Shown here: piece by piece, positions 12,642-31,969 of the stretch
Layout of the letters: each line of letters opens with the position of its first letter
How positions within the stretch are numbered: position 1 is the stretch's first letter
Assembly (NCBI GenBank): GCA_018701255.1
Contig: JABIWM010000077.1
Span: 1-32,208 of the forward strand
DNA length: 32,208 bases
Reading direction: 5' to 3'
Origin: Alphaproteobacteria bacterium
GTDB taxonomy: Bacteria > Pseudomonadota > Alphaproteobacteria > Puniceispirillales > UBA1172
Translations under genes and position numbers: made by a program
The notes under the pieces: generated by a model
The model's database searches: none
What the model saw: only the letters and a program-made list of their open reading frames with translations
What the model was told of the DNA's origin: nothing

Positions 12642-14192
12642 ATGTCTGGAAATAAAATGATTAGAAAAATAGAAAGCGTATCAATGCGGCTGGTAACAGC
12701 GTTCATACTGTCGTTCGTTTTCTTAACTGGAACAATTAATATTGTAAGAAGTGATGAATTAAACGTCAGACTCGGAGAAGATTTTACTACACTTGATCCG
12801 GCTTTCTGGCAAAGTGGCGCAGATTTGACAATGATCAATGTGTTATTTCCGAAACTAATCGAATTTAAATCAGGATCAGATTGGGAATATGAACTGCAAG
12901 CCGCTGAGTCCATTGAACAGGTTGATGAATTGACGATCAAATTCACCCTGAAGCCCGGACTTATGTGGACAGACGGTTATGGTGAAGTAACAACCGAAGA
13001 TGTGAAATATTCATATGAACGTTACATCGACCCAGAATTAGCATCACCAATTATCGGCGACTGGCTTCCACTTAAAGAAGTTGAAATTGTCGATAAATAT
13101 AGTGGAATTATTCACCTGAAAGAGCCATTTGCACCAATTTGGTGGAGTACACTTCCTTATTCAAGTGGAGCAATTGTTTCTAAAAAGGCAACAGAAGAAG
13201 CAGGCGGTAAGTTTACAACTGACCCCGGTGCAACAGCTGGTGCTTATAAAATTGAATCATGGACACCTCGCGAAAAGACCGTGTTAGTTCCACATGATGG
13301 TTGGAACGGACCTGAGGTCGGATTTGATAAAATAACAATCTACCCTATTCAGGAACCAAAATCGGCAGAAATAGCTTTTGAAGCAGGTGAAATTGACATT
13401 ACTGAAATCTCAATTGGTTCTGTGCCTAATTATAGAGAGTCATTGCCAGCTGGCGGTGTGCTGGATGTGCGGCCAACGGCTGACTATACCTTTTTGGGCA
13501 TTAATATTGCGAACGAAAAGCTGTCTGACGTTCGCGTAAGACAAGCGATCAAAATGGCCATTGATATTGATGCCATTCTGCAAGGAGCGTATTTTGGCGT
13601 TCCCGAGCAAGCAAGTGGATTAGTTGCACCGGGATTAGTCGGTTATACTGGCATCATGCCCGGCGCCAGAGATGTTCAGGGTGCAAAGGCGTTATTGGAT
13701 GATGCTGGCGTTAGTAATCTAAGCCTGGAGCTTGATGTTCTAAACACAGCTGAATTCATTACGGCGGCACAAATTATTCAGGCCAATCTTGGTGAAATTG
13801 GAATTAACCTGCAAATCAATCAGCTTGATTCAGGTGCGTTCTGGAATGTCGCTGCAGACAGAAAAGAAGATTTGCAGCTTACTTTGAACAACTATACAAG
13901 CCCACCTGATCCATCATGGTCAACACAGTGGTTTCTGCGTGACCAAAAAGGCATCTGGAATTGGGTATGGCTGGATAGCGAGGACTTTGACAACCTGCAC
14001 TTCGCCGCATTGAAAGAGACCGATATGAACAAGCGGTCAGATATGTATGTTGATATGCAGAAAGTCATGGATGAGTCTGGCGGATTTCTATTCATCATGC
14101 ACCCGCCTAGCGTGATCATTTATAGAGACACAATCAACCCGGGACTTTATCCTAATGGTGGGCTGAAGCTGACAGACTTTAAAGCCAATTAA
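12642..14192 (+). CDS. ABC transporter substrate-binding protein, peptide/nickel (SBP_bac_5, Dpp/Opp) family
   Basis: 516 aa with N-terminal signal-like segment. VRLGEDFTTLDPAFW, FTLKPGLMWTDGYGEVTTEDVKYSYERYIDP, VRQAIKMAIDIDAIL are typical. Confidence 0.93.
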   Translation: MSGNKMIRKIESVSMRLVTAFILSFVFLTGTINIVRSDELNVRLGEDFTTLDPAFWQSGADLTMINVLFPKLIEFKSGSDWEYELQAAESIEQVDELTIKFTLKPGLMWTDGYGEVTTEDVKYSYERYIDPELASPIIGDWLPLKEVEIVDKYSGIIHLKEPFAPIWWSTLPYSSGAIVSKKATEEAGGKFTTDPGATAGAYKIESWTPREKTVLVPHDGWNGPEVGFDKITIYPIQEPKSAEIAFEAGEIDITEISIGSVPNYRESLPAGGVLDVRPTADYTFLGINIANEKLSDVRVRQAIKMAIDIDAILQGAYFGVPEQASGLVAPGLVGYTGIMPGARDVQGAKALLDDAGVSNLSLELDVLNTAEFITAAQIIQANLGEIGINLQINQLDSGAFWNVAADRKEDLQLTLNNYTSPPDPSWSTQWFLRDQKGIWNWVWLDSEDFDNLHFAALKETDMNKRSDMYVDMQKVMDESGGFLFIMHPPSVIIYRDTINPGLYPNGGLKLTDFKAN

Positions 14193-14212
14193 AGGCTTCC
14201 AGAAAACAAAAT

Positions 14213-14247
14213 GATGGGGCTGGCCGTTAGCTGGCTCCATCTGTTTT
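14213..14247 (+). terminator. Stem-loop with short U tract between SBP gene and permease gene
   Basis: GATGGGGCTGGC-CGTTA-GCTGGCTCCATC (12-bp stem with three G:U wobbles), followed by tgtttt. Confidence 0.55.
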
Positions 14248-14340
14248 CATGCAATCATGAGCCAGAAAATATCACAGTATGCTTTGTTTAGCTTTAGTGA
14301 GATGATAGACTTTTAACCATAGATGATATTGGACTGATAT

Positions 14341-15285
14341 ATGATTAAGTATACCATTCAGAGAATTCTATTGGCTGTTTTGATCATAGTATGCGCTGTT
14401 GCCACTATGTTTATCATGATTCATGCGGTACCGGGTGATCCCGTAAATGTCATGCTTGGGCCTAGAGCGACTCCGGAAATAAAAGAAGCATTGCGGGCAA
14501 GGCTTCATCTTGATCAGCCGATAACGACCCAGCTGTTTTACTTTTTCAGAGGTCTTTTAATGGGCGATTTCGGATATGATTTACGTTCAAATCGTCCCGT
14601 TCTGGATATTATTTTAGAACAATTTCCTCATACGCTAATTCTGGTAACATCCGCGCTTATCGTGTCAACCATTGGCATACCTGTTGGCCGTTATGCCGCC
14701 ATACATCGTAATGGCACATTTGACCGGATTGTCGGAACGATTTCTGTTTCCATCATCGCCATGCCCGCTATTGTTGTTGGGCTATATATGCTTTTGTTTT
14801 TTTCGGTAGAATTAAGATGGTTTCCGGTGATTGGTGCGGGTGACAAAAACGACTGGCTTGATTATCTATGGCATCTGACTTTGCCGGTCATTACCATCAG
14901 CATTGCCTGGATCGGTTACATCTCGCGGATTGTGCGCGCATCAATGATTGAAGTATTAAGCCAAAATCATGTCCGTATGGCACGCGCATTCGGTTTGCCC
15001 GAATCTAAAGTTATTAACAGATATGCGCTTCGTATTGCTGTCCTGCCATCAATAACCATGCTTGGGGTTAGTGTTGCATTAATTCTGTCAAGTACGGTGA
15101 TTGTTGAAATCATATTTTCGCGCCCCGGTATTGGCAGTCTTTTATACGAATCAGTTCTTAGCCGGAATTACCCATTAGTCATGGGCGCGGTTTTGTTTAG
15201 CACTATTTTCATCGTTGCAGGAACGACCATAGCTGACTTGGTAAATGCCGCCATTGATCCCAGATTACGGAAGGAAAAAGACTAA
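14341..15285 (+). CDS. ABC transporter permease, DppB-type
   Basis: MIKYTIQRILLAVLIIVCAVATMFIMIHAVPGDPVNVMLG N-terminus and EAA-like loop RMARAFGLPESKVINRYALRIAVLPSIT. Confidence 0.94.
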   Translation: MIKYTIQRILLAVLIIVCAVATMFIMIHAVPGDPVNVMLGPRATPEIKEALRARLHLDQPITTQLFYFFRGLLMGDFGYDLRSNRPVLDIILEQFPHTLILVTSALIVSTIGIPVGRYAAIHRNGTFDRIVGTISVSIIAMPAIVVGLYMLLFFSVELRWFPVIGAGDKNDWLDYLWHLTLPVITISIAWIGYISRIVRASMIEVLSQNHVRMARAFGLPESKVINRYALRIAVLPSITMLGVSVALILSSTVIVEIIFSRPGIGSLLYESVLSRNYPLVMGAVLFSTIFIVAGTTIADLVNAAIDPRLRKEKD

Positions 15286-16169
15286 TGTCATCGGGGAAAA
15301 GAGAGCAGGTTGAAATCCGTCGAACAAACAGAATAAAAAGTTTGTTTGGTAAACTTCTTGGTGATCCCATGGGTGCCATAGGGGTGTTGATAGTTGCCAG
15401 TTTTTTGATCATCGCATTATTTGCTGATGTGATTGCCCCTTATGAACCAAATAAAATTGATATTCTTAACAAGTTACAGGGGCCAAGTCTGGATCATCTG
15501 GTCGGCACCGATCAGCTAGGCAGAGATACTCTATCCCGTCTTATTCACGGCACCCAGATTGCGCTTCTTGTTGCCGCCATATCTATTGGTTTAGCTGTTT
15601 TAATCGGCTCAGTTCTTGGCGCGATTGCCGGATATGGCCCGACTTGGCTAGACTTTATTATCATGCTGATTTTTGACACGATGCGATCATATCCGGTGAT
15701 AATGTTTGCTCTTGCGGTGGTCGTGCTTTTTGGCCCCAGCTTAACGACAATCATCATTATTATCATGGCCACATCATTCCCTACCTATGGGCGGTTGATG
15801 CGAACGCAAACACAAACGCTCAGAAAGTCGGAATATATTTTATCCGCGCAAGCGCTAGGCATAAGCACACCGCGCATCTTATTAAGACATATACTACCAA
15901 ACACAATTGGCCCGATTCTGATTGTTGCCAGTATGGATGTTCCATTTGTCATTGCTCTAGAAGCCGGGCTCAGCTTTCTGGGGCTTGGGGTAAGACCACC
16001 TACACCAAGCTGGGGAAGTATATTAAATGATGGGTTTACTTACATCAGAAACTCACCCTGGATTTTGTTTAGCGCGGGCGCGCCTCTCATATTGGTGACG
16101 ATTGGGTTCACTTTTTTAGGCGAACAGCTCCGTGATGTTTTAGATCCAAAAATAAGTAAGGATCGGTAA
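15285..16169 (+). CDS. ABC transporter permease, DppC-type
   Basis: DVIAPYEPNKIDILNKLQGPSLDHLVGTDQLGRDTLSRLIHGTQIAL; EYILSAQALGISTPRILLRHILPNTIGPILI. Start overlaps previous stop (taATG). Confidence 0.95.
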   Translation: MSSGKREQVEIRRTNRIKSLFGKLLGDPMGAIGVLIVASFLIIALFADVIAPYEPNKIDILNKLQGPSLDHLVGTDQLGRDTLSRLIHGTQIALLVAAISIGLAVLIGSVLGAIAGYGPTWLDFIIMLIFDTMRSYPVIMFALAVVVLFGPSLTTIIIIIMATSFPTYGRLMRTQTQTLRKSEYILSAQALGISTPRILLRHILPNTIGPILIVASMDVPFVIALEAGLSFLGLGVRPPTPSWGSILNDGFTYIRNSPWILFSAGAPLILVTIGFTFLGEQLRDVLDPKISKDR

Positions 16170-17851
16170 TGAAAACGTCATTAGAACATGTTCTGGAAAT
16201 TCGTGATCTGACAATTGCATATGGTGAACAGCCGGCAATAAAATCTATTGACCTATGCGTTGGTAATGGTCGCATCGTTGGTATCGTAGGTGAGAGTGGC
16301 AGTGGAAAATCTACGTTAGTGTCGGCCTTAATCGGGTTGCTTTCACATTCGGCAAAAATAACCGGTGGTCATATTTTATTTAGTGATAAGGACCTCACTA
16401 AAATAACCCCACATGAATTCAGAGATATTCGCGGGCATCAAATATCTATGGTTTCACAAGATGCATTAAGCGCACTTAATCCGGTGCTGACCATTGGTGA
16501 TCATTTGATGGATATTCAGTTTCGTGAGCCGATTGGAAATGCTGAAAAAAGAAAAAGGGCAATCGCGGCGCTTCAATCCGTGCATATGCCAGACCCGGAA
16601 GCGCGTTTATCCATGTATCCGCATGAGCTATCGGGCGGCCAGAAACAACGTGTTTCTATCGCCATGGCAATTATGATGCGGCCTAAAATTCTAATTGCGG
16701 ATGAGCCAACAACCGCGCTAGACGCAACATTAGAAGTTGAGATTATCTCGCTGCTTAAAGAGCTGCAGGTAAAGATTGATTGCGCCATGATCTTTGTGAC
16801 ACATCATTTAGGTGTTGTTACTTCTCTTTGCGATGATGTTGTCGTTTTACATAATGGGGTTGTTCAAGAGGCGGGAGTCGTAAGAGAGGTTTTTGTTAAT
16901 CCCCAAAGCCAGTATACGAAAAATCTTTTGCTCTGTGATCCTGCTCATATTAAGGAAAAGTGCCGGCAATTACCCACTATGAGCGCCCCACATGAAAAAA
17001 AGATAGAAAAGAAAACGGCGGCCAAGAAACGTATTGCTATTGATGAAGGCCCTATTTTACAGATCAAGGATTTGGTTGTTAAATTCCGCAAATCCTTTGA
17101 ACTAAAACACATGATTTTGCGAAGCAAACCAGCTGAAATTACGGCGGTTGACAGTGTATCTCTTGATTTATTCAAAGGCGAAACATTGGCAATTGTTGGT
17201 GAGAGTGGTTCCGGCAAGACAACCTTGATCAGGTCTATATTAAAGCTTGTTTCCTGCCAGTCAGGGAGCATTGCTTTTATGGGCAAATCACCATTGACCA
17301 AGGATCGGAAAGAATTGGCATCTATCCGGCGTGACATCGCTCTAGTGTTTCAAGACCCGGTTGGCAGTTTGAGCCCAAGAATGACTATAGAAAGCATCAT
17401 CAGGGAAGCGATGCATCATGGAGCGCCTCGCAACATATCAACGCGAAATGAAGTGGAAAGATTGCTGTTGCTTGTTGGCCTTCCTGCGGCGTTTGCCTCG
17501 CGCTATCCACATGAGATTTCTGGTGGACAGGCACGGCGCGTATGTGTTGCAAGAGCATTGGCGCAACAGCCTAAAATGATCATTGCTGATGAACCAACAG
17601 CAGGACTGGATGTTTCGATACAGGGGGAAATCCTCAATCTGTTATCAGAGCTTCAAGATAGTCTTCAATTGCCAATATTAATCGTTACCCACAATCTTAA
17701 TGTCGTGCGTCATATTAGCGATAGAATGGTGATTATGTTACAGGGTAAAATTGTTGAACAAGGTTCCACAGAAGATATTTTTTCAAACCCCAAACATGAT
17801 TATACAAAACGTCTTCTGGCATCAAATATTCATGTTCTGCCAGCGCCCTAA
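16169..17851 (+). CDS. ABC transporter ATP-binding protein with two fused ATPase domains (DppD-DppF-like)
   Basis: 560 aa. Two Walker A (GESGSGKSTLV, GESGSGKTTLI), two signature motifs (LSGGQKQRVSIA, ISGGQARRVCVA), two Walker B (ILIADEPTTALD, MIIADEPTAGLD). Confidence 0.95.
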   Translation: MKTSLEHVLEIRDLTIAYGEQPAIKSIDLCVGNGRIVGIVGESGSGKSTLVSALIGLLSHSAKITGGHILFSDKDLTKITPHEFRDIRGHQISMVSQDALSALNPVLTIGDHLMDIQFREPIGNAEKRKRAIAALQSVHMPDPEARLSMYPHELSGGQKQRVSIAMAIMMRPKILIADEPTTALDATLEVEIISLLKELQVKIDCAMIFVTHHLGVVTSLCDDVVVLHNGVVQEAGVVREVFVNPQSQYTKNLLLCDPAHIKEKCRQLPTMSAPHEKKIEKKTAAKKRIAIDEGPILQIKDLVVKFRKSFELKHMILRSKPAEITAVDSVSLDLFKGETLAIVGESGSGKTTLIRSILKLVSCQSGSIAFMGKSPLTKDRKELASIRRDIALVFQDPVGSLSPRMTIESIIREAMHHGAPRNISTRNEVERLLLLVGLPAAFASRYPHEISGGQARRVCVARALAQQPKMIIADEPTAGLDVSIQGEILNLLSELQDSLQLPILIVTHNLNVVRHISDRMVIMLQGKIVEQGSTEDIFSNPKHDYTKRLLASNIHVLPAP

Positions 17852-17866
17852 AAACAGGAGTGTAGG

Positions 17867-19300
17867 ATGAATAATGATGATCTTTGCTATATGTCAGCAA
17901 CCGAGGCACTGGCAAAATTTCAAGCGCGTTCCTTATCACCTGTTGAGCTGATCAGTGCCATTATCCATCGGGCTGAAGCCATTCAGGAAAACATTAATCC
18001 TTTTGCCGACTGCTATTTTGATGAGGCGCTTGACGCAGCAAAAGTGTCAGAAAAAAAATACCAGAATCCCGATAACTATCATGGGCAAATGGGACAACTA
18101 GAAGGCTTGCCGTTAGCGGTTAAAGATAGCACGCCAATACAGGGGCGACGTTCAGCAAATGGGTCGCTTATCAATAAAGACCGAATTGATGAGTTCAGTA
18201 ATCCGTCTATTGAACGTCTGCTGGAACATGGTGCTAATCTTTTTGCCCGTACCACCTGTCCGGAATTCTGCTGGTTATTTACATGCCATTCGCGCATGTG
18301 GGGTGTCACGCGCAACCCATGGCGACTTGATATCACGCCCGGCGGCTCATCAGGAGGGTCGGCGGCGGCCCTGGCCGCAGGTGCCGCAACCATAACAACA
18401 GGAAGCGATAGCGCAGGTTCAATTCGGCAACCGGCCAGCCAATGCGGTGTTGTCGGTTACAAACCGCCTTATGGCCGCATGCCACTATCGCCATATAATT
18501 CATTTAATCCATATGTTCAGATTGGCCCCATGGCACGAACGGTGGCAGACACGGCTTTGATGTCAAATGTCATGTCAGGCATGCATCCGCTGGATCACAC
18601 ATCCCTTTCAGATACATGTATATTACCTGAACATCCATTGGATATTGCGGGAATGAAAATAGGCTTTTCTACTGACCTTGGCCATTATGATCTAGATAGT
18701 GATGTTGAGCATGAGTTTTTAACATCGCTCCAGTGTTTGAAAGATGCTGGTGCTTTAATAGAAGACGTTCCGTTGAGCGGCTTGAGTGAAATGATTGAGT
18801 TGTCGCATGGCGCGCAGGAATTCGAAGCGCATGGATTTTTGCAGGACGCCATAGATAATCATTCAGATGTGATTAGTGACTATGTGCCGGAATTACTTGA
18901 AACAGCTCTTAAATATAATGCTGAGGATTTGCAACGATCCAAGTCATTATCTGGTGATATCTGGCAACAAATCCTTGGCCCGATTTTTCAAAAATATGAT
19001 GCTTTCCTTTGTCCCACGGTGGCAACGCCAATGGTTCCGGCAGAACATTGGCAAACCCATACGATATTAGTAGGCGAGCGCCATCTAACCGATACAGAGA
19101 TTACAATGACAGCATTATTCAATCATTTTAGCAGGTGCCCAGTGTTAGCGGTGCCAAGCGGTATCACCAAAGCAGGTCTGCCTTGTGGGCTTCAAATCGT
19201 CGGGCGACCTTATGATGATATGACGGTTTTCCGCGTTGGCACAGCATTAGAAAAAGCCCGCCCATGGTTACAAACACCTGAAAGCCGGCCGGTGCTTTAA
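17867..19300 (+). CDS. Amidase (amidase-signature family), tandem copy 1
   Basis: Lys in LAVKDST, cis-Ser in TPGGSSGGSAAA, nucleophile Ser in TGSDSAGSIRQPAS. Begins 15 nt after the ABC ATPase stop. Confidence 0.93.
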   Translation: MNNDDLCYMSATEALAKFQARSLSPVELISAIIHRAEAIQENINPFADCYFDEALDAAKVSEKKYQNPDNYHGQMGQLEGLPLAVKDSTPIQGRRSANGSLINKDRIDEFSNPSIERLLEHGANLFARTTCPEFCWLFTCHSRMWGVTRNPWRLDITPGGSSGGSAAALAAGAATITTGSDSAGSIRQPASQCGVVGYKPPYGRMPLSPYNSFNPYVQIGPMARTVADTALMSNVMSGMHPLDHTSLSDTCILPEHPLDIAGMKIGFSTDLGHYDLDSDVEHEFLTSLQCLKDAGALIEDVPLSGLSEMIELSHGAQEFEAHGFLQDAIDNHSDVISDYVPELLETALKYNAEDLQRSKSLSGDIWQQILGPIFQKYDAFLCPTVATPMVPAEHWQTHTILVGERHLTDTEITMTALFNHFSRCPVLAVPSGITKAGLPCGLQIVGRPYDDMTVFRVGTALEKARPWLQTPESRPVL

Positions 19301-19345
19301 TTGATAATAATGGAACAACCTAAGATAATTGAAATGAGGAATAAA

Positions 19346-20770
19346 ATGAGCAGTGATGATCTTTGTTATATGTCAGCGGTTGAAGCTATCAATCATTTTC
19401 GTAAGCGGTCACTTTCACCAGTAGAATTGCTGGATGCTATCATTGATCGCGCGAACGCCATTTCTGCGACCGTCAATCCCTTTGCCGATTGCTATTTTGA
19501 TGAGGCGCGACAAAGAGCAAAAATATCTGAAGCCTTATACGCGAAAAAAGACGCTAATATTGGCTCTCTTGAGGGTATTCCACTGGCGGTAAAGGATATC
19601 TGTAATATTGCTGGAAAGCGGACAACTAGCGGTTCGCTTATTTATAGTGAGAATATTGCCCAGCAAACATCTGCCCATGTTCAGCGCCTGCAAGACGCTG
19701 GCGCAAATGTTTTTGCCAGAACAACAATTCCGGAATTTGCATGGTTATTTACCACGCAATCGCGCATGTGGGGCGTGACACATAATCCATGGAGATCAGG
19801 AATATCACCGGGTGGTTCATCAGGTGGTTCTGCCGCCGCTGTTGGGGCGGGTGCAACGACATTGGCAACCGGCAGTGATAGCACCGGATCAATCCGTCAA
19901 CCGGCCAGTCAATGTGGTGTTGTTGGATATCAGCCACCGCATGGGCGTATTCCCAATATCGGGTCAAGTTCATTCAATGGTTACAGCAAACCGGGGCCAA
20001 TGACCCGAACGGTCGCTGATTGTGCACTGATGGCCAATATCATGTCTGGCCCGGATGATAGAGATCATAATTCGCTGGATCCGGTTGCTGAAATCACTTT
20101 AGATGATGTTGATCTGTCCGGTATGAAAATAGCTTATTCCCTCGACTTGGGATGCTACGATATGGCAGACGATGTGGTCAGAGAAACGCTGGCATCTATC
20201 GAAGCCTTGCGGCGGACGGGCGCTGTGGTTCAAGAGGTTCAGGTCAGCTGGGCAAAAGACCTTATTGATCTGGCTTATGGGGCGCAAGAAGTCTTGTTTG
20301 CAGAGTTTCTGAATGTGGCGGTTAATAAACACGGTGATCTGGTTAGCGATTATGTGCCGCAATTACTTGAAACGGCAAATAGCTATCCGGCGAACACTTA
20401 TTTTAAAGCACTTGAAGCGGCAGGTAGAGTTTGGCGGGATCATATAGGGCCGTTATTTAACCAATATGATGCTTTTATTACCCCAACCACCACCTATACC
20501 GATATTCCGGCAACGGGATGGCAAAAAGACACGGTGACGGTAAATGGCAAAGATTACACAGATACGGAAACGACCATGGCGGTTTTGTGGAATATGTATA
20601 ATAGGTGTCCGGTGATGGCCGTCCCGTCAGGTAGAGCCAATAGTGGTGTGCCAACAGGCATCCAGATTATTGGACGACCTCTTGATGATCAAACGGTGTT
20701 TCGTATTGCCAGCGCATTTGAAAAAGAAAGACCATGGCTTGATTGCGCTGAGAGGCGACCAGTTTTATAA
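19346..20770 (+). CDS. Amidase (amidase-signature family), tandem copy 2
   Basis: Start MSSDDLCYMSAVEA preceded by gagga SD (ORF track opens at 19301). LAVKDIC, SPGGSSGGSAAA, TGSDSTGSIRQPAS. Collinear and clearly paralogous with 17867..19300. Confidence 0.93.
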   Translation: MSSDDLCYMSAVEAINHFRKRSLSPVELLDAIIDRANAISATVNPFADCYFDEARQRAKISEALYAKKDANIGSLEGIPLAVKDICNIAGKRTTSGSLIYSENIAQQTSAHVQRLQDAGANVFARTTIPEFAWLFTTQSRMWGVTHNPWRSGISPGGSSGGSAAAVGAGATTLATGSDSTGSIRQPASQCGVVGYQPPHGRIPNIGSSSFNGYSKPGPMTRTVADCALMANIMSGPDDRDHNSLDPVAEITLDDVDLSGMKIAYSLDLGCYDMADDVVRETLASIEALRRTGAVVQEVQVSWAKDLIDLAYGAQEVLFAEFLNVAVNKHGDLVSDYVPQLLETANSYPANTYFKALEAAGRVWRDHIGPLFNQYDAFITPTTTYTDIPATGWQKDTVTVNGKDYTDTETTMAVLWNMYNRCPVMAVPSGRANSGVPTGIQIIGRPLDDQTVFRIASAFEKERPWLDCAERRPVL

Positions 20771-20935: not shown

Positions 20936-22591
20936 ATGGATGTTGATTATATCATTGTCGGGGCAGGATCAGCGGGATGTGTGCTGGCTAACCGGCTGAT
21001 CAATAGTGGAAATAATCGGGTGTTATTACTGGAAGCAGGGCCGAATAACACGGCACTTTCTTTAAAAATGCCGGCAGCCGTTTTGTCAAACCTGACAAAT
21101 ACCAAGCATAATTGGGCTTTTCAGGGTGAGCCGGAGCCTGAATTAAACGGCCGCCAGTTACAGCATGATCGCGGTAAGACACTGGGTGGGTCATCGTCTA
21201 TTAACGGGATGGTATTCATCCGGGGACATGCGCTTGACTATGAAGGCTGGCGGCAATCCGGATGCGTGGGTTGGAGTTATGCTGATGTATTACCATATTT
21301 TAAACGGATGGAAAATTATGGCGGTGGCGGTGATGAGTATCGGGGCGAAAGCGGCCCACTTCACGTTCATCGTGCCAAACCGGAAGACCCATTAACACTG
21401 GCTTTTTTGAAAGCTGGTGAAGAAGCAGGCTACGCGGTAACGGATGATATCAGCGGAAGATGTCAGGAAGGTTTTGGCGTTTCAGACCGAACTGTTTTTA
21501 AAGGCGAAAGGTGGAGCACAGCACGCGCCTATCTTGATCCGGTACGTCGTCACTCTCATCTGACCATACACACACAAGCACAGGTACAACGGCTTATTTT
21601 TGAGGGCAACAAAGCCACCGGAGTAACTTATAAAGACCGTAGCGGACATATTGTAAACGCATATGCTAGCAAAGAAATTATTCTTAGCGCAGGCGCCGTG
21701 GGCTCGCCACATATTCTGATGTTGTCAGGCATTGGCCCGGCCAGACATCTGCGTGATATGGGTATTGATGTGCGTCATGATTTACCGGGTGTTGGCCAGA
21801 ATCTCAATGATCATCCTGATTTTGTGCTGAAATATAAATGCAGACAGCCCGTATCTTTCTGGCCGAAAACAAAGCCGCTGGCAAAGCTAATGGCGGGCAT
21901 CCAGTGGCTGACAACACGCCGGGGGATTGTGGGCTCTAACCTTTTTGAGGGATTAGGGTGCATCCGGTCATCGCCTGAGGTGGAATATCCGGATTTGCAG
22001 ATTATCATTTCCCCCATTGCTGTTGATGACGCCACATGGAAGCCGCTTCAGGAACATGCTTTTCAGATTCATGTCGGGCTGATGCGCGCATATAGCCGTG
22101 GCAAAATTGAATTGCGGTCGTCTGATCCTGAACATCCGCCTAGTATTCTGGTAAATTATCTGAAAGATAGCCGTGATCGGGAAGCTATGCGTAAAGGCAT
22201 AAAGCTTGTTAGGGAATTAGTGGAACAGCCAGCATTTTCAGAACTCCGAGGTGAGGAAATTTTCCCGGGGAATGATGTGCAATCTGATGATGAGTTTGAC
22301 CGCGTTCTGAATACACATACAACAACGCAATGGCATTTATCCTGCACCGCCCGAATGGGTGATGCGAATGATAAGGGTGCAGTGGTTGACGCTAGTGGGC
22401 GAGTGCATGGGATATCGGGATTGCGGGTAGTCGATGCATCAATCATGCCGGTTGTCACAAATGGAAACACCAATGCCCCGACTATCATGATCGCCGAAAA
22501 ACTAAGTGATGATATTTTGGGGTATCCACCATTGCCGCGTATAGAAAAAGATGTCTGGCGTTATACGGATACCGCATCAGGCCAGCGCTAA
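20936..22591 (+). CDS. GMC-family FAD-dependent oxidoreductase (choline/alcohol dehydrogenase-like)
   Basis: FAD motif DYIIVGAGSAGCVLANRL, GKTLGGSSSINGMVFIRGHALDYEGW, GAVGSPHILMLSGIGP, C-terminal HLSCTARMG...VVDASIMPVVTNGNTNAPTIMIAEK. Confidence 0.95.
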   Translation: MDVDYIIVGAGSAGCVLANRLINSGNNRVLLLEAGPNNTALSLKMPAAVLSNLTNTKHNWAFQGEPEPELNGRQLQHDRGKTLGGSSSINGMVFIRGHALDYEGWRQSGCVGWSYADVLPYFKRMENYGGGGDEYRGESGPLHVHRAKPEDPLTLAFLKAGEEAGYAVTDDISGRCQEGFGVSDRTVFKGERWSTARAYLDPVRRHSHLTIHTQAQVQRLIFEGNKATGVTYKDRSGHIVNAYASKEIILSAGAVGSPHILMLSGIGPARHLRDMGIDVRHDLPGVGQNLNDHPDFVLKYKCRQPVSFWPKTKPLAKLMAGIQWLTTRRGIVGSNLFEGLGCIRSSPEVEYPDLQIIISPIAVDDATWKPLQEHAFQIHVGLMRAYSRGKIELRSSDPEHPPSILVNYLKDSRDREAMRKGIKLVRELVEQPAFSELRGEEIFPGNDVQSDDEFDRVLNTHTTTQWHLSCTARMGDANDKGAVVDASGRVHGISGLRVVDASIMPVVTNGNTNAPTIMIAEKLSDDILGYPPLPRIEKDVWRYTDTASGQR

Positions 22592-22610: not shown

Positions 22611-23222
22611 TTAATTTTTCGGGGGACGCCCGCTATACACATACTGATTGGTGGATAGGTCGCCATGCCAGACATATACAGACATAAAAGCATTGCTCTG
22701 TGTTTTAGTGGCATGTGGAAGATATGACGGGTGATGGGATCGTCCGTTTACGGTTAATAATGAATAAGGTGCATCGCCCCTTTTCCATAGACAGTCACCA
22801 GCAAGCATAATAAAAATTTCTTCCGCCGGATGCGTGCGTAACCCATATTCCAAATGTGAAAGCATGCCATAAAGCCCTATCCGGACGATGTCAGATTTTA
22901 TTAATCCGTCGGGGCCAAGCAATTCAACATGCGATTTGAAGGTGCTATCTTTTTGATAAAGCGGATCACTGGATGTTTCTGGCGGCGCCCAGTTGAAAGC
23001 AATATCGAGAATATCAGCACAGACCGGATGCGCATCCGGAAGTCGCATGACTTCCTGAAGTGGGGCAGGTAAAGCCCCGCCCGGATGATCCATATCATAC
23101 GCGCCGGTTTGGGATTGTAATTCTTTGCGGGCAATCCGTTCTATATCTAGATCGCCATCAAAAACATCAGCCAGAGTTTTAAAAAACGTGCTTAATGTCA
23201 TTATGCTATTATTATTTCCCAT
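22611..23222 (-). CDS. Cupin protein of the DMSP lyase / lyase-like (DddQ/DddL-type) superfamily; function uncertain
   Basis: 203 aa. EYGLRTHPAEEIFIMLAGDCLWKRGDAPYSLLTVNGRSHHPSYLPHATKTQSNAFMSVYVWHGDL resembles the DddQ/DddL core (HxHxxxExYxxxxG ... W.RGD.P ... HHPS..PHA..T ... YVW.G). Start may be MTLSTFF at 23201. Confidence 0.78.
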   Translation of the reverse strand: MGNNNSIMTLSTFFKTLADVFDGDLDIERIARKELQSQTGAYDMDHPGGALPAPLQEVMRLPDAHPVCADILDIAFNWAPPETSSDPLYQKDSTFKSHVELLGPDGLIKSDIVRIGLYGMLSHLEYGLRTHPAEEIFIMLAGDCLWKRGDAPYSLLTVNGRSHHPSYLPHATKTQSNAFMSVYVWHGDLSTNQYVYSGRPPKN

Positions 23223-23404: not shown

Positions 23405-24439
23405 ATGATAAAGAAGCATTTATGTTCAGCCGCTGTTGCTGTTGGAATGTTATCAGCATCGCAAGCCTTTGCTGCAGGTGAGTTAAATATTTTTAACTGG
23501 GGTAACTACACTAGCCCTGAACTGATTGAAAAATTCGAAAAAACCTATGACGTTAAAGTTACAATTACCGATTATGATTCTAATGATACGGCTTTAGCAA
23601 AAGTCCGTGCCGGTGCGCATGGTTTTGACATTGCTGTACCATCAGCGAGTTTCATGCCAATCTGGATCAGCGAAGGATTGTTGTTAGAAACAAATCCGGC
23701 TCAGATGTCTAATTATGGTAATGTCCGCGATAATTTCAAAAGCCCTGACTGGGACCCCGGCCACCGGTATTCGGTTCCTTATCAGTGGGGCACCGTTGGC
23801 GTTATTGTTGATAGCACGCTTTATGATGGCGATATCAACACATGGGCAATGGTATTTGAGCCGCCAGCAGAACTGTCTGGTAAAATTAACGTAGCACCAG
23901 AAATGCTTGATCTGATTGATGCGGCATTAAAATATACTGGTGGTGAGCCATGTACTGACGATAAGAGCCAGCTGAAAAAAGCGCGTGATACACTGGTTAG
24001 CGCAAAGCAGCACTGGCTATCAATGGATTACGGCGTGATTGAAAAGTTTGCTGGCCGTGATCTGGGAGCATCGCTGTACTGGAATGGTGCCGCGTTCCGT
24101 GCAAGAGAGAAAAACCCTGATGTTCGTTTTGGCTATCCAAGAGAAGGTTATCCTATCTGGATGGACGCGGTAGTTGTTCTCAAAGACGCAAAGAATGTTG
24201 AAAATGCCAAGCTGTTTCAGAACTTTCTTATGGAACCGGAACATGCTGCGATGGCATCAGCCTTTGCCCGTTATGCCAACGGTATCAAAGGTTCTGAGCC
24301 ATTCATGCCAGAAGATATGAAGGGCGCACCAGAAGTAGAGATTGCAGCAGAGTTTATTCCTAATGGATTCTTCAGCAAAACCTGCCCACCGCATGTGCAA
24401 GAAATGTATTCTGCTATCTGGACAGAATTACAAAAATAA
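23405..24439 (+). CDS. Polyamine-type (PotD/PotF) periplasmic substrate-binding protein
   Basis: Signal peptide MIKKHLCSAAVAVGMLSASQAFAAG; GELNIFNWGNYTSPELIEKFEKTYDVKVTITDYDSNDTALAKVRAGAHGFDIAVPS. Confidence 0.92.
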   Translation: MIKKHLCSAAVAVGMLSASQAFAAGELNIFNWGNYTSPELIEKFEKTYDVKVTITDYDSNDTALAKVRAGAHGFDIAVPSASFMPIWISEGLLLETNPAQMSNYGNVRDNFKSPDWDPGHRYSVPYQWGTVGVIVDSTLYDGDINTWAMVFEPPAELSGKINVAPEMLDLIDAALKYTGGEPCTDDKSQLKKARDTLVSAKQHWLSMDYGVIEKFAGRDLGASLYWNGAAFRAREKNPDVRFGYPREGYPIWMDAVVVLKDAKNVENAKLFQNFLMEPEHAAMASAFARYANGIKGSEPFMPEDMKGAPEVEIAAEFIPNGFFSKTCPPHVQEMYSAIWTELQK

Positions 24440-24499: not shown

Positions 24500-25951
24500 C
24501 TAAATATGGTGAAACTGGCGGATCAAACCCACTTGCTTATCATGCCAGGGCATGGATGTTTCACATTGCGCCGCCAGACTGATTAGCATTTCGTCATTGC
24601 CATATGCGCTGGCAAAATGAACGCCAATGGGCAGCTGATCAGATGTCCAATGAAGCGGCAAAGACATAGCCGGTTGGCCGGATGCGTTAAATGCCGCCGT
24701 GTATGGTGAATAGGCAAACACACCATCGGGGCCATTGCGATAATCCATAAAATCGGCATTATCCGGTTTGAACCGGCCAATGAGAGCAGGCGGCTCAGCC
24801 AGAGTCGGAGTAACCAGAACGTCAAAATCTTCGAATAGCGCGGCCATTTTGCGGCCAAAGGCATGAATCATATTGATGGATTGCAGATAATCCGCCCCCG
24901 ACACGGTTTTGCCAAGCTGAACAGCGCCATAAGTTACCCCATCCACATCATCGGGGGTTAGCGCATCTATATCTTTTTTATACCGGACGGAAAGCAATGT
25001 TCCGGCGGCTACAATTTTTGTCCAAGCCATCATCATATCCCTAACATCAGGGGCAATAGTTGACGACCATGAGCTAACATGATGACCAAGCTGACGTAAC
25101 ATATCAGCCGTATGGCTAACCGCTTTACGGCATTCTTCGTGAACAGGATTACCCATAAAATCGGTATCCAGTACAGCAACCCGTAACCCTGATTGTTGAT
25201 CATCCATAGATGCCATAAAGCCTTTATGTAATGGAGGAGCAGAATAAGGTGCGCCCATATCAGAACCTGAACATTGATCAAGCATAAAGGCGCTATCACG
25301 AACGGAACGTGTAAGAAAGCCGTCAATTGCCATGCCTGCCCAGCCTTCGCCAACACCGGGGCCATCGGGCAGGCGGGCGCGTGTTGGTTTGATGCCAACC
25401 AAGCCACAGCATGACGCCGGAATACGGACAGACCCGCCACCATCAGACCCATGCGCGAGTGGCACGATACCGGCGGCTACGGCTGAACCTGAACCGCCCG
25501 ATGATCCGCCGCTGGTATGATTTAAATTCCAGGGGTTACGCGTAGGGTTGCCATAAACGCCAGCTTCGCTAGTCGGGCCTATGCCAAGCTCAGGTGAGTT
25601 TGTTCTGGCATAGGGGATAAGTCCAGTTTTCAGTATCCGCGTGTAAATGGAGGCATCATAGGAATAAACAGTATCACGATAAAGCCGTGATCCGTTATGT
25701 GAGGGAAAGTCTTTTGCTTCGGCGCCCAAGTCTTTTAATAAGGTCGGCACGCCATATAATGGTGCGCTTTGTTCGGTCGTAGCGATGAGGTCTTGTGCTT
25801 TGGATGTATTAATATTGACGATGGCGTGCAGAGAAGGGTTCAAACGTTCTGCCCGCGAGAGGCTGGCCTCTAGCATTTCTGATGCGGAAACCGCACCTTT
25901 TTTAATCTGTTCGGCTAGAGCAATAGCATCACATTCAAATAGTTCATCCAT
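24500..25951 (-). CDS. Amidase-signature hydrolase, NylA (6-aminohexanoate-cyclic-dimer hydrolase)-like
   Basis: 483 aa. [73 protein letters not shown]-terminal [44 protein letters not shown] resemble NylA as recalled. Confidence 0.9.
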
Positions 25952-27414: not shown

Positions 27415-28530
27415 ATGAGCAAGACCAAAAAGGATGCCATTGCCATTCATGTCAATGGAGTGGGAAAATATTTTGGCTCTGAGCCAAATCTCGTTAAAGC
27501 ACTAGACAATGTATCTATTGATATTCGCCGTAATGAGTTTTTCACGCTTCTTGGCCCATCAGGATGTGGAAAGACCACTTTGCTTCGATTAATTGCAGGC
27601 TTTGAAAGTCCCACATTTGGACAGATGCTTCTCGATAATCAGGATATTACCAATCTTCCCCCTTATCACCGTTCTGTTAACACCGTGTTTCAGAGCTATG
27701 CGCTATTTCCACATTTGACCGTGGCTGAAAATATTAGCTTTGGTTTGGAAATGCTAAAAAAACCAAAGCATGAAATTTCTGCCACTGTTGATGAAATGCT
27801 GGCTCTTGTTCATATGGAAGAGCTGAAACACCGCCGCACGGATCAGATTTCGGGCGGCCAGCAACAACGGGTTGCCTTGGCCAGAGCATTAGCCCCCAAA
27901 CCTGATGTATTGTTACTGGATGAACCGCTATCCGCGCTTGATTACAAATTGCGGCGGGGGATGCAAATTGAATTAAAACGATTGCAACTGGAAACGGGCA
28001 TCACGTTTATTTTTGTTACCCATGATCAGGAAGAAGCCTTAACCATGTCAGACCGGATCGCCGTCATGAGCAATGGCCATATCCTGCAAGTGGGAACACC
28101 TAATGAGATTTATTACAACCCTCAAGAGCGTTTTGTTGCCGACTTTATTGGCGAATCCAATTTTATAGAAGCTGAGGTCGTTTCTGTAACAAAAGGCCGG
28201 TCAGCTACCGCTTCTCTGCGTCTGGCTGGTACGCGGAAAACATTTAAAGCAAACATGCCTGCCAGTAAGTCAAAAGATAAAACAGCGACGGTTTTTATTC
28301 GGCCGGAACATGCAAAGCTGCAAAAATCTACACGCGGGGCGACTCTCACCGGCACCTTGACCAATATGCTATTTTTTGGAACGGATACCAATTATCACCT
28401 GGAACTTGATAATGGTGATGCCTTTGTTGTGCGTTCCCAGAATGAAATCGGTCATGCTTTCCATCCCGCTATCGGCGATAAGCTGGGGGTGGTCATTGAT
28501 GAGCAAGCTATTCAGGTATTGAAGGACTAA
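27415..28530 (+). CDS. Polyamine-type ABC transporter ATP-binding protein (PotA-like)
   Basis: [75 protein letters not shown]-terminal TOBE-like region. Confidence 0.95.
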
Positions 28531-28535
28531 GCATC

Positions 28536-29462
28536 ATGGCGCGAAAATTAAGCGAGATGGAAGCAGAACGTATTAAGCGCAAAAATAGAGCCAACTGGCT
28601 GCTATCTATGCCAGCTATACTTTTACTTTTGTTTGCGGCATCCGGGCCATTATTGATTGTTATTGTCTATTCTTTTCTGACTCCGGGAAATTATGGCGGC
28701 ATATTGTGGGAATTTTCTGGGGAAGCATGGTTCAAGGTGCTTTTTGCGCAAGATATTTTTGATGATACGATTTCACTTTCTGATGCGCATCTATCTATTT
28801 TCTGGCGGTCTGTTCAACTCTCTTTTCTCACAACATTGATCTGTCTGATACTGGGCTTCCCGACAGCATATTTTATTGCAACACGGCCGCCTAAAACACG
28901 GAATATCTGGCTATTTCTGATTACGATTCCGTTCTGGACAAATTTGTTGATCCGGACATTCGCTATTCTGGAACTGATCAGAAATAAAGGGGTGATCAAT
29001 AACTCGCTTATATCGCTGGGCATTATCAATGAACCGATCAACATGCTCTATACGGATATGGCCATTGTTATCGGGATGACCTATGTGTATCTGCCATTGA
29101 TGGTTCTGCCTATTTATGCCGCTATGGAGCGTTTTGATTTTCGCTATGTTGAGGCTGGATTTGATCTCTATGCGTCGCGTTTCAAAGTCATGCGGCGAAT
29201 TATTCTGCCGATTATCAAACCCGGCGTTATTGCGGGTTCAATTCTGGTTTTTGTTCCGTCACTTGGGGCATATGTCACGCCGCGTATTCTGGGTGGTGGA
29301 AAGAATTTGATGATTGGCAATCTGATTGAGCTACAATTCGGACAGGGTAAAAACTGGCCATTAGGGGCGGCATTGGCGGTGACAATGTTGCTCATTGTAT
29401 TGCTTGCTTTGATTTTCTACATGCGGATTTCACAACGGTCGGAACAAAAAGATGCTCAATAG
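28536..29462 (+). CDS. Polyamine-type ABC transporter permease (PotB-like)
   Basis: WKVLF-type N-terminus, FPTAYFIATRPPKTRNIWLFLITIPFWTNLLIRTFA, EAGFDLYASRFKVMRRIILPIIKPGVIAGSILVFVPSLGAYVTP. Confidence 0.94.
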   Translation: MARKLSEMEAERIKRKNRANWLLSMPAILLLLFAASGPLLIVIVYSFLTPGNYGGILWEFSGEAWFKVLFAQDIFDDTISLSDAHLSIFWRSVQLSFLTTLICLILGFPTAYFIATRPPKTRNIWLFLITIPFWTNLLIRTFAILELIRNKGVINNSLISLGIINEPINMLYTDMAIVIGMTYVYLPLMVLPIYAAMERFDFRYVEAGFDLYASRFKVMRRIILPIIKPGVIAGSILVFVPSLGAYVTPRILGGGKNLMIGNLIELQFGQGKNWPLGAALAVTMLLIVLLALIFYMRISQRSEQKDAQ

Positions 29463-30273
29463 ATTATTCTGGAAAAAACGTGAGTTCTCTGTCACCTATC
29501 AATTTGGCTTTGCCACTATCGCATTAATCTGCTTTTTTGCGCTCTATGCCCCAATCTCTACGCTGGTTTTTTATTCGTTTAATGCCGGAAATAATCTCAT
29601 GCTATGGGAAGGCTTTTCTTTTCAGTGGTATGTTGAGGCCAGTAAAAATGAACTGGTGCAAGAAGCTGCTATTAGATCACTAATTATTGCTGTCTGTGCG
29701 TCATTGATCTCAACGCTTGTTGCAACAATGGCCGCGCTTGGAACAACACGGACAGCACCATTTAAAGGCCAGAAGCTGATCTTCATCATGATCAATCAGC
29801 CGCTAATGGTTCCTGAAATCGTGACCGCAGTAGCATTGCTCATCTTTTTTGCCATTATTAAAACATTCACTAATTATTATGGACTGGGTTATTTAATAAC
29901 GGCACATGCGGCTTTTTGTGTGCCGTTTGCCTATTTGCCTATTAAAGCCCGTCTTGATGGGATGGATTTAAGCATGGAAACGGCGGCGGGTGATCTTTAT
30001 GCAACACCGTTTGTTGTTTTCCGGCGGATAACATTACCTTTATTATGGCCGGGTATTCTGGCTGGTGCGATGCTGTCGTTTGTTATTTCGCTGGACGATG
30101 TCATTATCACCGAGTTTGTGAAAACTGCCGGGCAAGATACGCTTCCAACCTATATGCTGGGGCAGTTGCGGCGCGTCATTACGCCGGAAATCAATGCCAT
30201 TTCATCGGTTCTTTTGGCGGTATCTCTGGTTGTGGTGACTATATTCTTCCTGTTTACCAGAAAGCGGTATTAA
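29452..30273 (+). CDS. Polyamine-type ABC transporter permease (PotC-like)
   Basis: YAPISTLVFYSFN, METAAGDLYATPFVVFRRITLPLLWPGILAGAMLSFVISLDDVIITEFV. 11-nt overlap with PotB-like gene. Confidence 0.95.
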   Translation: MLNRLFWKKREFSVTYQFGFATIALICFFALYAPISTLVFYSFNAGNNLMLWEGFSFQWYVEASKNELVQEAAIRSLIIAVCASLISTLVATMAALGTTRTAPFKGQKLIFIMINQPLMVPEIVTAVALLIFFAIIKTFTNYYGLGYLITAHAAFCVPFAYLPIKARLDGMDLSMETAAGDLYATPFVVFRRITLPLLWPGILAGAMLSFVISLDDVIITEFVKTAGQDTLPTYMLGQLRRVITPEINAISSVLLAVSLVVVTIFFLFTRKRY

Positions 30274-30307: not shown

Positions 30308-31969
30308 TTAGGCTTGATAGGTAATTTTGCCGCCACAGATTGTGGTTTGCGCTTTTGACTGATCCAGCTCATCAGGGTTCATTGTGGTCAGATCATGTGA
30401 CATGACCACAATATCCGCCATCATGCCGGGGCTAAGCCTGCCTTTTTTATCCTCATTAAACTCAACCCACGCATTGCCGCTGGTGTAGCTTTCCAATGTA
30501 TCCATCAGGCTCTGGGTCTGATCACGCCAAGGCGGTGATAGCCGGCGCGGCGCAACAGCAGATTTAATATTAGGCATCACATCAACCGGAATAACAGGCC
30601 AGTCTGTCGAAAAAATAACCCGTGCGCCCGATTGACGAATATCCTGCCACGCATAAGCCAGCGGGATTTGATGCGGATGCAACATCCGGCTGACGCTTTC
30701 TTCGGAAAAATAAACACCCCATGGCGCATGACCGGGCTGAATAGAAGCCACAACCCCCAATTCGGCAAAGCGCGGCAGATCATCGGGATGAAGCACCTCA
30801 ATATGTTCAATCCGGTGGCGGCTATCCCGCTTGCCATTTGTTTGCTGGGCTAGTGCATATCCATCCAGTGTCTGGCGAATGGCGCGATCACCAATAGCAT
30901 GAACAGATATCTGGAATTGCATGGCGTCTGCTTTAACGCAAGCTGCCTTGAAATGATCTTCCTCAAACACCGCATCACCAATGGTATCCAGTCCGGGATA
31001 TTTATCCAGCATCAGCGCGGTGGAGCTTTCAACAACGCCATCAACAAACATTTTTACCCGATTACACCATACCCAATCACCGGTAAAATCACGGCGCATG
31101 GTCGCCGCTTCTTCAAACCGGTCAAGCTCATCAAAGTTTTTAAAATGAAAAGGCACTTCGGTTCGGCAAAGCAAATCACCCCGTTGCTCAAGCTCTTTGA
31201 GCAATTCCAGCGTATATATATTACCATCCATATTATGCAGTCCGGTTATTCCGTGGCTGGCACAATGTTTGAACCCGCGTGCAATAGCATCGGCATCATT
31301 GCGGCGTTCGGTGGCATTAGCCGCGGGATCGGGATTGCGGCCGGTGACCAAACCAATCATGTCACGTCCGCCATATCGGGTTAGCCTTAATACAGGGGCG
31401 TAGGCACCGGGTTCACGCAATTCACCTGCGGCTTTACCATCGGCGCCGATAACAATTTCAGCGCCTTTATCGACTATGCCGCCATTAAGAATTCCGGCCA
31501 ATTCAAGCGCTTTTGTATTTGCCCAGATAGTATGGTGGTCTGCTGCAAACATGGCAAATGGTCTATCAGGAAGCACTTTATCCAGATCATGTCTTGTCGT
31601 CTGTTTGCCCGATGCAATGATGTTGTAATCAGCCTGAACAGCAAACACCATTGTATCATCAGGGCAGGATTTTTCCCATTGCCGGACACGGTCTGTCAGA
31701 TTATCAATACCTTTAACCCCATAAAGGTCTAGATAATCCAGCTCAGCCGAACCACCAAATAAATGGACATGGCTATCAATAAAGCCGGGTAACACCGAAT
31801 GTTTACCGGCATCAATAATCTGTGTGTTCATGTCAGCCAGATCGCGCATGTCAGCGGTTTCACCAACGGCCAGAATATGACCGTCTTTTATTGCACATGC
31901 ATTGGCATTCGGGTTTTCATCCGTAAAGGTGATGAAATTACCGTTAATGATGATCATATCAGCGGTCAT
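30308..31969 (-). CDS. YtcJ-type metal-dependent amidohydrolase (amidohydrolase_3 family)
   Basis: 553 aa. AIKDGHILAVGE, VLPGFIDSHVHLFGGSAELDYLDL, SVHAIGDRAIRQTLDGY, RHRIEHIEVLHPDDLPRF, ARVIFSTDWPVIPVDVMPNI. Confidence 0.92.
   Translation of the reverse strand: MTADMIIINGNFITFTDENPNANACAIKDGHILAVGETADMRDLADMNTQIIDAGKHSVLPGFIDSHVHLFGGSAELDYLDLYGVKGIDNLTDRVRQWEKSCPDDTMVFAVQADYNIIASGKQTTRHDLDKVLPDRPFAMFAADHHTIWANTKALELAGILNGGIVDKGAEIVIGADGKAAGELREPGAYAPVLRLTRYGGRDMIGLVTGRNPDPAANATERRNDADAIARGFKHCASHGITGLHNMDGNIYTLELLKELEQRGDLLCRTEVPFHFKNFDELDRFEEAATMRRDFTGDWVWCNRVKMFVDGVVESSTALMLDKYPGLDTIGDAVFEEDHFKAACVKADAMQFQISVHAIGDRAIRQTLDGYALAQQTNGKRDSRHRIEHIEVLHPDDLPRFAELGVVASIQPGHAPWGVYFSEESVSRMLHPHQIPLAYAWQDIRQSGARVIFSTDWPVIPVDVMPNIKSAVAPRRLSPPWRDQTQSLMDTLESYTSGNAWVEFNEDKKGRLSPGMMADIVVMSHDLTTMNPDELDQSKAQTTICGGKITYQA

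Follow-up and report, generated by a model that had tools for sequence, protein, structure and literature searches.

Three cupin DMSP lyases, DddQ, DddW and DddK, provide the framework for the gene described here. In DddQ, six aligned residues (Tyr120, His123, His125, Glu129, Tyr131 and His163) lie in the active site and are essential, and His125, Glu129, His163 and Tyr131 are the zinc ligands (PMC4437653). Replacing His81 of DddW, the equivalent of DddQ His123, with alanine abolishes both iron binding and activity (PMC4437653). The base proposed for DddK is Tyr64, and its His56 becomes a metal ligand once substrate binds (PMC10686828, PMC12582016). Changing Tyr64 to alanine or phenylalanine abolishes DMSOP cleavage or reduces it by more than 90% (PMC10686828); a report cited in PMC12582016 puts the activity left in Y64F at about 10%, with a second tyrosine compensating. 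As Y64F keeps that much activity, a phenylalanine at the equivalent position of our protein, residue 137, does not by itself exclude lysis. In the literature we searched, we found no experimental test of arginine at the DddQ His123 position. Lei et al. reportedly described, in 2018, a split of the PF16867 'DMSP-lyase-like' cupin family.

A DddQ-like cupin with an altered first motif

The window, the whole stretch of 32,208 nucleotides analysed, carries a cupin gene on its reverse strand (Table 1). The profile search that an earlier note on this DNA had proposed gave 41.9 bits (E 1.1e-10) against PF16867 (DMSP_lyase), whose curated cut-off is 27 bits, and the genome search gave 41.5 bits; no NCBIfam model matched the open reading frame. 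The best solved relatives by sequence are DddQ proteins from Ruegeria pomeroyi (5cu1, E 2e-11), Roseovarius (4b29) and R. lacuscaerulensis (4la2), and every match to a solved structure at E < 0.1 is a DddQ. For the AlphaFold model (mf0a5caacc7fd, mean pLDDT 73.8), PDB ranks 1-6 are all DddQ entries, with the predicted fold superposing over nearly the full length at TM 0.54-0.66. Chance resemblance or misalignment to DddQ is ruled out by the profile score and the ungapped HMMER alignment. Translation probably starts at Met8 (23201), as same-genus and other homologues begin there and the ATG at 23222 has no Shine-Dalgarno-like stretch before it.

Table 1. Features of the cupin gene and its surroundings (residues numbered from the first ATG)
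Feature	Position	Strand	Remark
PF16867 cupin gene, 203 aa from first ATG, stop included	22611..23222	-	frame intact
Likelier start codon, Met8 (MTLSTFF...)	23199..23201	-	matching Met opens homologues
DMSP_lyase profile match, residues 97-177	22692..22934	-	profile search
Tyr126 (DddQ Tyr120)	22845..22847	-	kept in 19/20 intact clade members and 55/55 others
Arg129 (CGC), at DddQ His123 / DddW His81	22836..22838	-	Arg in 19/20 intact clade members
His131 (DddQ His125), putative metal ligand	22830..22832	-	invariant
Glu135 (DddQ Glu129), putative metal ligand	22818..22820	-	invariant within clade
Phe137 (TTT; DddQ Tyr131)	22812..22814	-	Tyr/Phe within clade
His170 (DddQ His163), putative metal ligand	22713..22715	-	invariant
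BetA-like GMC oxidoreductase (choline dehydrogenase sub-family), convergent	20936..22591	+	tail-to-tail with cupin
PotD/PotF-like solute-binding protein, divergent	23405..24439	+	182 bases between starts as read
Opp-type transporter and two amidases	12642-20770		
Third amidase	24500-25951		
Pot-type transporter	27415-30273		
Amidohydrolase	30308-31969		

The core of motif 1, R129-T-H131-P-A-E-E135-I-F137-I-M-L-A-G142 (YGLRTHPAEEIFIMLAG), aligns to DddQ (5cu1, 4b29, 4la2) without a gap from upstream of Tyr126 to beyond Gly142. This bears out the earlier reading that the first histidine has become arginine and the tyrosine after the glutamate phenylalanine. Because the alignment is ungapped across the motif, no neighbouring residue supplies the missing histidine or tyrosine, which was the one way in which that reading might have failed on alignment. 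Motif 2, HHPSYLPHATKT...YVWHG, is intact, as had been noted, and Tyr126, a residue the earlier note did not mention, is retained.

With DddQ (5CU1, Roseovarius nubinhibens 4B29 and 4LA2; numbering of R. lacuscaerulensis DddQ) the window cupin shares fold, length, the equivalents of Tyr120, His125, Glu129 and His163, and motif 2, including the tryptophan of VLWRG. It differs in having arginine for His123 and phenylalanine for Tyr131 (tyrosine in other members of its clade), and it belongs to a separate clade. No direct sequence match to DddW or DddK was obtained, but mapping through the literature matches its metal-site positions to H83/E87/H121 of R. pomeroyi DddW and H58/E62/H96 of Pelagibacter DddK. 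By the same mapping, the histidine needed for activity or acting as a substrate-bound ligand (DddW H81, DddK H56) is arginine in the window cupin, and DddK Tyr64 is phenylalanine. The profile score places the protein among the PF16867 'DMSP-lyase-like' cupins; most of the relatives examined in that family read HxHxxxExY, whereas the clade to which it belongs reads RTHxxxExY/F. Going by the published DddW, DddQ and DddK mutants, it is unlikely to be an efficient canonical DMSP lyase.

A conserved arginine clade

We inferred a maximum-likelihood tree from 76 sequences, leaving out columns 129 and 137. In it the window protein and 20 further sequences, from contigs of alpha- and gammaproteobacteria, form a group with 100/100 support (the Arg clade). 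DddQ fragments cluster elsewhere (100/97), leaving the cupin outside the characterised DddQ clade. The tree placement that had been suggested thus separates the protein from DddQ, but it also shows that we are not dealing with a lone variant.

A scan of our genome collection found eight relatives at 48-96% identity, from Hyphomicrobiales, Granulosicoccaceae, Rhodobacteraceae, Chromatiales and other MAGs. Searching 136 genomes of the same order with a profile gave 15 strong matches, spread over 14 genomes of which the window's is one. Besides the window, 385 genomes of the class and 399 of the phylum yielded a single strong match, the distant L084, so the clade appears rare and patchy. All relatives from these searches except one, L083, carry arginine in place of the histidine; L084 does so yet falls outside the Arg clade on the tree. 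A search of viruses found no clade member, and the plasmid matches were all distant relatives, 30-36% identical across roughly half the length, with no full-length copy among them.

Among the 20 intact clade members, His131, Glu135, His170 and Trp185 show no changes, and L083 is the one exception at both Arg129 and Tyr126. Position 137 behaves differently. Within the clade it is tyrosine in 12 members and phenylalanine in 8, requiring at least five changes on 8.3 tree units; outside, tyrosine is found in 52 of 55 relatives, with three changes on 47 units, 5.7 times more tree (His129 is likewise present in 52 of the 55). Outside the clade 13 columns are conserved, and of these only 137 shows more than one change within it, although one search pattern for the first relatives contained phenylalanine at 137, and with the same-order sequences only, which were mostly found without that pattern, the changes drop to two (P about 0.10). 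Since tyrosine and phenylalanine interchange within the clade, Phe137 alone carries little information.

The values of dN/dS, 0.063 between the window cupin and same-genus L032 and 0.098 for the pair L075/L076, indicate that the gene is maintained, and dozens of columns are invariant across nine sequences with identity down to 47%. A decaying or non-catalytic copy might have been suspected, given that two key residues differ from those of characterised lyases and that a distant relative, L082, does look decayed, with aspartate at 137 and its glycine lost. Set against the low dN/dS, the intact frame and the invariant columns, it is highly improbable, and strong purifying selection rules out degeneration of the window cupin. 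The description of its core as degenerate in an individual gene is contradicted by that selection and by arginine in 19 of 20 clade members. Judged from the sequences, the window cupin belongs to a known family as a conserved variant, that of the Arg clade, and Arg129 is a fixed, old feature of this clade. What sets the clade apart is its own replacement of histidine by arginine, with a relaxed tyrosine, rather than loss of function in a single gene.

Departures from the motif were also seen in other proteins. L083 (G075:C105:9152-9760), a G075 paralogue inside the Arg clade, reads CRIHTHPAEEIY: histidine is back at 129, Tyr126 has become cysteine and the following glycine arginine, possibly a compensating swap. 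A second break with the lyase motif is seen in L068 and L046, which form a PF16867 sub-group with serine for the first histidine (SSHSGEET), one of them having histidine at the tyrosine position. L084 lies near these two and combines arginine with methionine.

Gene neighbourhoods

The BetA-like oxidoreductase gene next to the cupin also adjoins it in the same-genus contig L032. When 22 loci were clustered by gene order, neighbours differed among the clade loci and revealed no consistent pathway. The tightest arrangement, at L039, is an MTTB-family methyltransferase gene, three bases, the cupin and an overlapping dimethylglycine-dehydrogenase-like gene; the MTTB-family protein has glycine betaine methyltransferases among its closest solved relatives. 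In both L095 and L098 the gene just upstream of the cupin is homocysteine-S-methyltransferase-like, and the two copies are 81% identical to each other. Together with the choline-dehydrogenase-like gene, these neighbours point weakly to methylated-onium metabolism. Some cupin-MTTB adjacency is expected by chance, as the genome has nine MTTB matches, eight of them strong.

Eight strong MTTB genes are unusually many for a 2-Mb genome and mark a large investment in the chemistry of quaternary amines. Across the order, MTTB genes occur in 77 of 136 genomes, while none of the genomes listed for family f4 has one. Every genome of the order with an Arg-clade cupin also encodes MTTB; since the same holds for almost every member of those families, this profile is uninformative. 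An alcohol dehydrogenase that looked like a recurrent neighbour was also discarded: its orthologues are confined to one genus (L092, L093 and L094), and the alcohol-dehydrogenase-like genes of L088 and L095, at 21-26% identity, are different genes.

Similar neighbours accompany other DMSP-lyase-like cupins. In L007 and L008, a cupin with the canonical motif is followed directly by an MTTB-family gene in the same orientation. Dimethylglycine-dehydrogenase-like genes adjoin the cupins of L042/L069, L047 and L049; L042/L069 (G470:C36:27278-28414) are tandem cupins, the first within a 991-aa open frame, with the dehydrogenase-like gene 84 bases after the pair. In the window itself, the surrounding transporter, amidase and amidohydrolase genes suggest uptake and cleavage of amide-linked compounds.

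Proposed function

Our working view, which we think probable if far from assured, is that the window cupin represents a working but uncharacterised sub-family of 2-His-1-Glu metalloenzymes with an anion-binding arginine and a small carboxylate substrate other than DMSP. A single divalent metal would be held by His131, Glu135 and His170. Arg129 takes the place of the fourth, substrate-dependent histidine ligand of DMSP lyases; it is unlikely to be a metal ligand itself and would more plausibly bind the substrate, its fixed positive charge holding a carboxylate or other anion beside the metal. Proton transfer, if there is any, could be carried out by the conserved Tyr126. As residue 137 alternates between tyrosine and phenylalanine, the metal-bound tyrosinate base of DddQ and DddK is presumably not needed. 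For the substrate, a small, probably zwitterionic carboxylate other than DMSP is likeliest, perhaps another onium compound, since Trp185 after motif 2 is kept.

It had been proposed that the gene encodes either a lyase with an altered mechanism or a non-lyase. The choice itself stands, with a canonical lyase made unlikely by the published mutants; what falls away is the premise of a single degenerate gene, since the clade is conserved. That the protein is a genuine DMSP or DMSOP lyase of altered mechanism, with the DMSP carboxylate bound by Arg129 and Tyr126 as the base, seems to us unlikely, though many of its features would fit. It shares the fold of DddQ, its nearest solved relatives, and keeps the metal ligands, Tyr126 and the motif 2 tryptophan, and 12 of the 20 clade members have Tyr137. 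Some DMSP lysis may occur, as DddK Y64F remains about 10% active (PMC12582016) and Tyr126 could serve as base. The organism may also meet DMSP, as its genome has two DmdA-like genes (381 and 363 bits), but both matches fall under the model cut-off of 410 bits. Moreover, the histidine replaced here is needed in DddW and listed as essential in DddQ (PMC4437653), and it is kept in 52 of the 55 relatives outside the clade.

The same metal site could be read as that of an O2-dependent, dioxygenase-like enzyme, with 2-His-1-Glu coordination, three open metal positions and Arg129 anchoring the substrate carboxylate. The 2-His-1-Glu facial triad is common in Fe(II) oxygenases, and loss of the fourth protein ligand would leave just such a site. 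SbzM, a cupin that oxidises L-cysteine, offers a precedent (PMC6331615). However, no sequence link to cupin oxygenases was seen, with all solved matches below E 0.1 being DddQ, and we regard this reading as quite improbable.

Returning to the 2-His-1-Glu metalloenzyme with an anion-binding arginine, the reaction is probably related to, but different from, DMSP lysis, to judge from the residues kept and lost. We suggest, tentatively, that the Arg clade makes up a new enzyme family among the DMSP-lyase-like cupins, whose members would combine a 2-His-1-Glu metal site with a catalytic or anchoring arginine and act on a methylated N- or S-onium carboxylate other than DMSP. Betaine catabolism would be one example, hinted at by the operon of MTTB, cupin and dimethylglycine-dehydrogenase-like genes at L039.

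Annotation and significance

The warning that annotation could mislabel the gene as a DMSP lyase proved well founded: the protein passes the PF16867 cut-off, no NCBIfam model matches it, and homologues of the family on plasmids carry the record name 'dimethylsulfonioproprionate lyase family protein'. Many Sinorhizobium meliloti plasmids (hits H4-H28) carry a PF16867 relative, named dimethylsulfoniopropionate lyase in some records; the gene of this soil symbiont may be mis-annotated too. The window's own genome holds a second PF16867 cupin, L001 (C76:12205-12594; 73 bits), with a canonical HxHPALEIY motif. It belongs to a different clade, has a long WWW-rich C-terminus and is the better candidate for a true lyase.

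DMSP lyase releases the climate gas dimethyl sulfide, and estimates of its marine release draw on the numbers of DMSP-lyase genes counted in genomes and metagenomes. The Arg clade would inflate such counts, because it passes the family cut-off without the first histidine and often without the tyrosine. A one-residue rule, arginine in RTHxxxE, separates the clade and would prevent the mislabelling. The Arg clade is also a natural test of which residues are truly needed for lyase chemistry.
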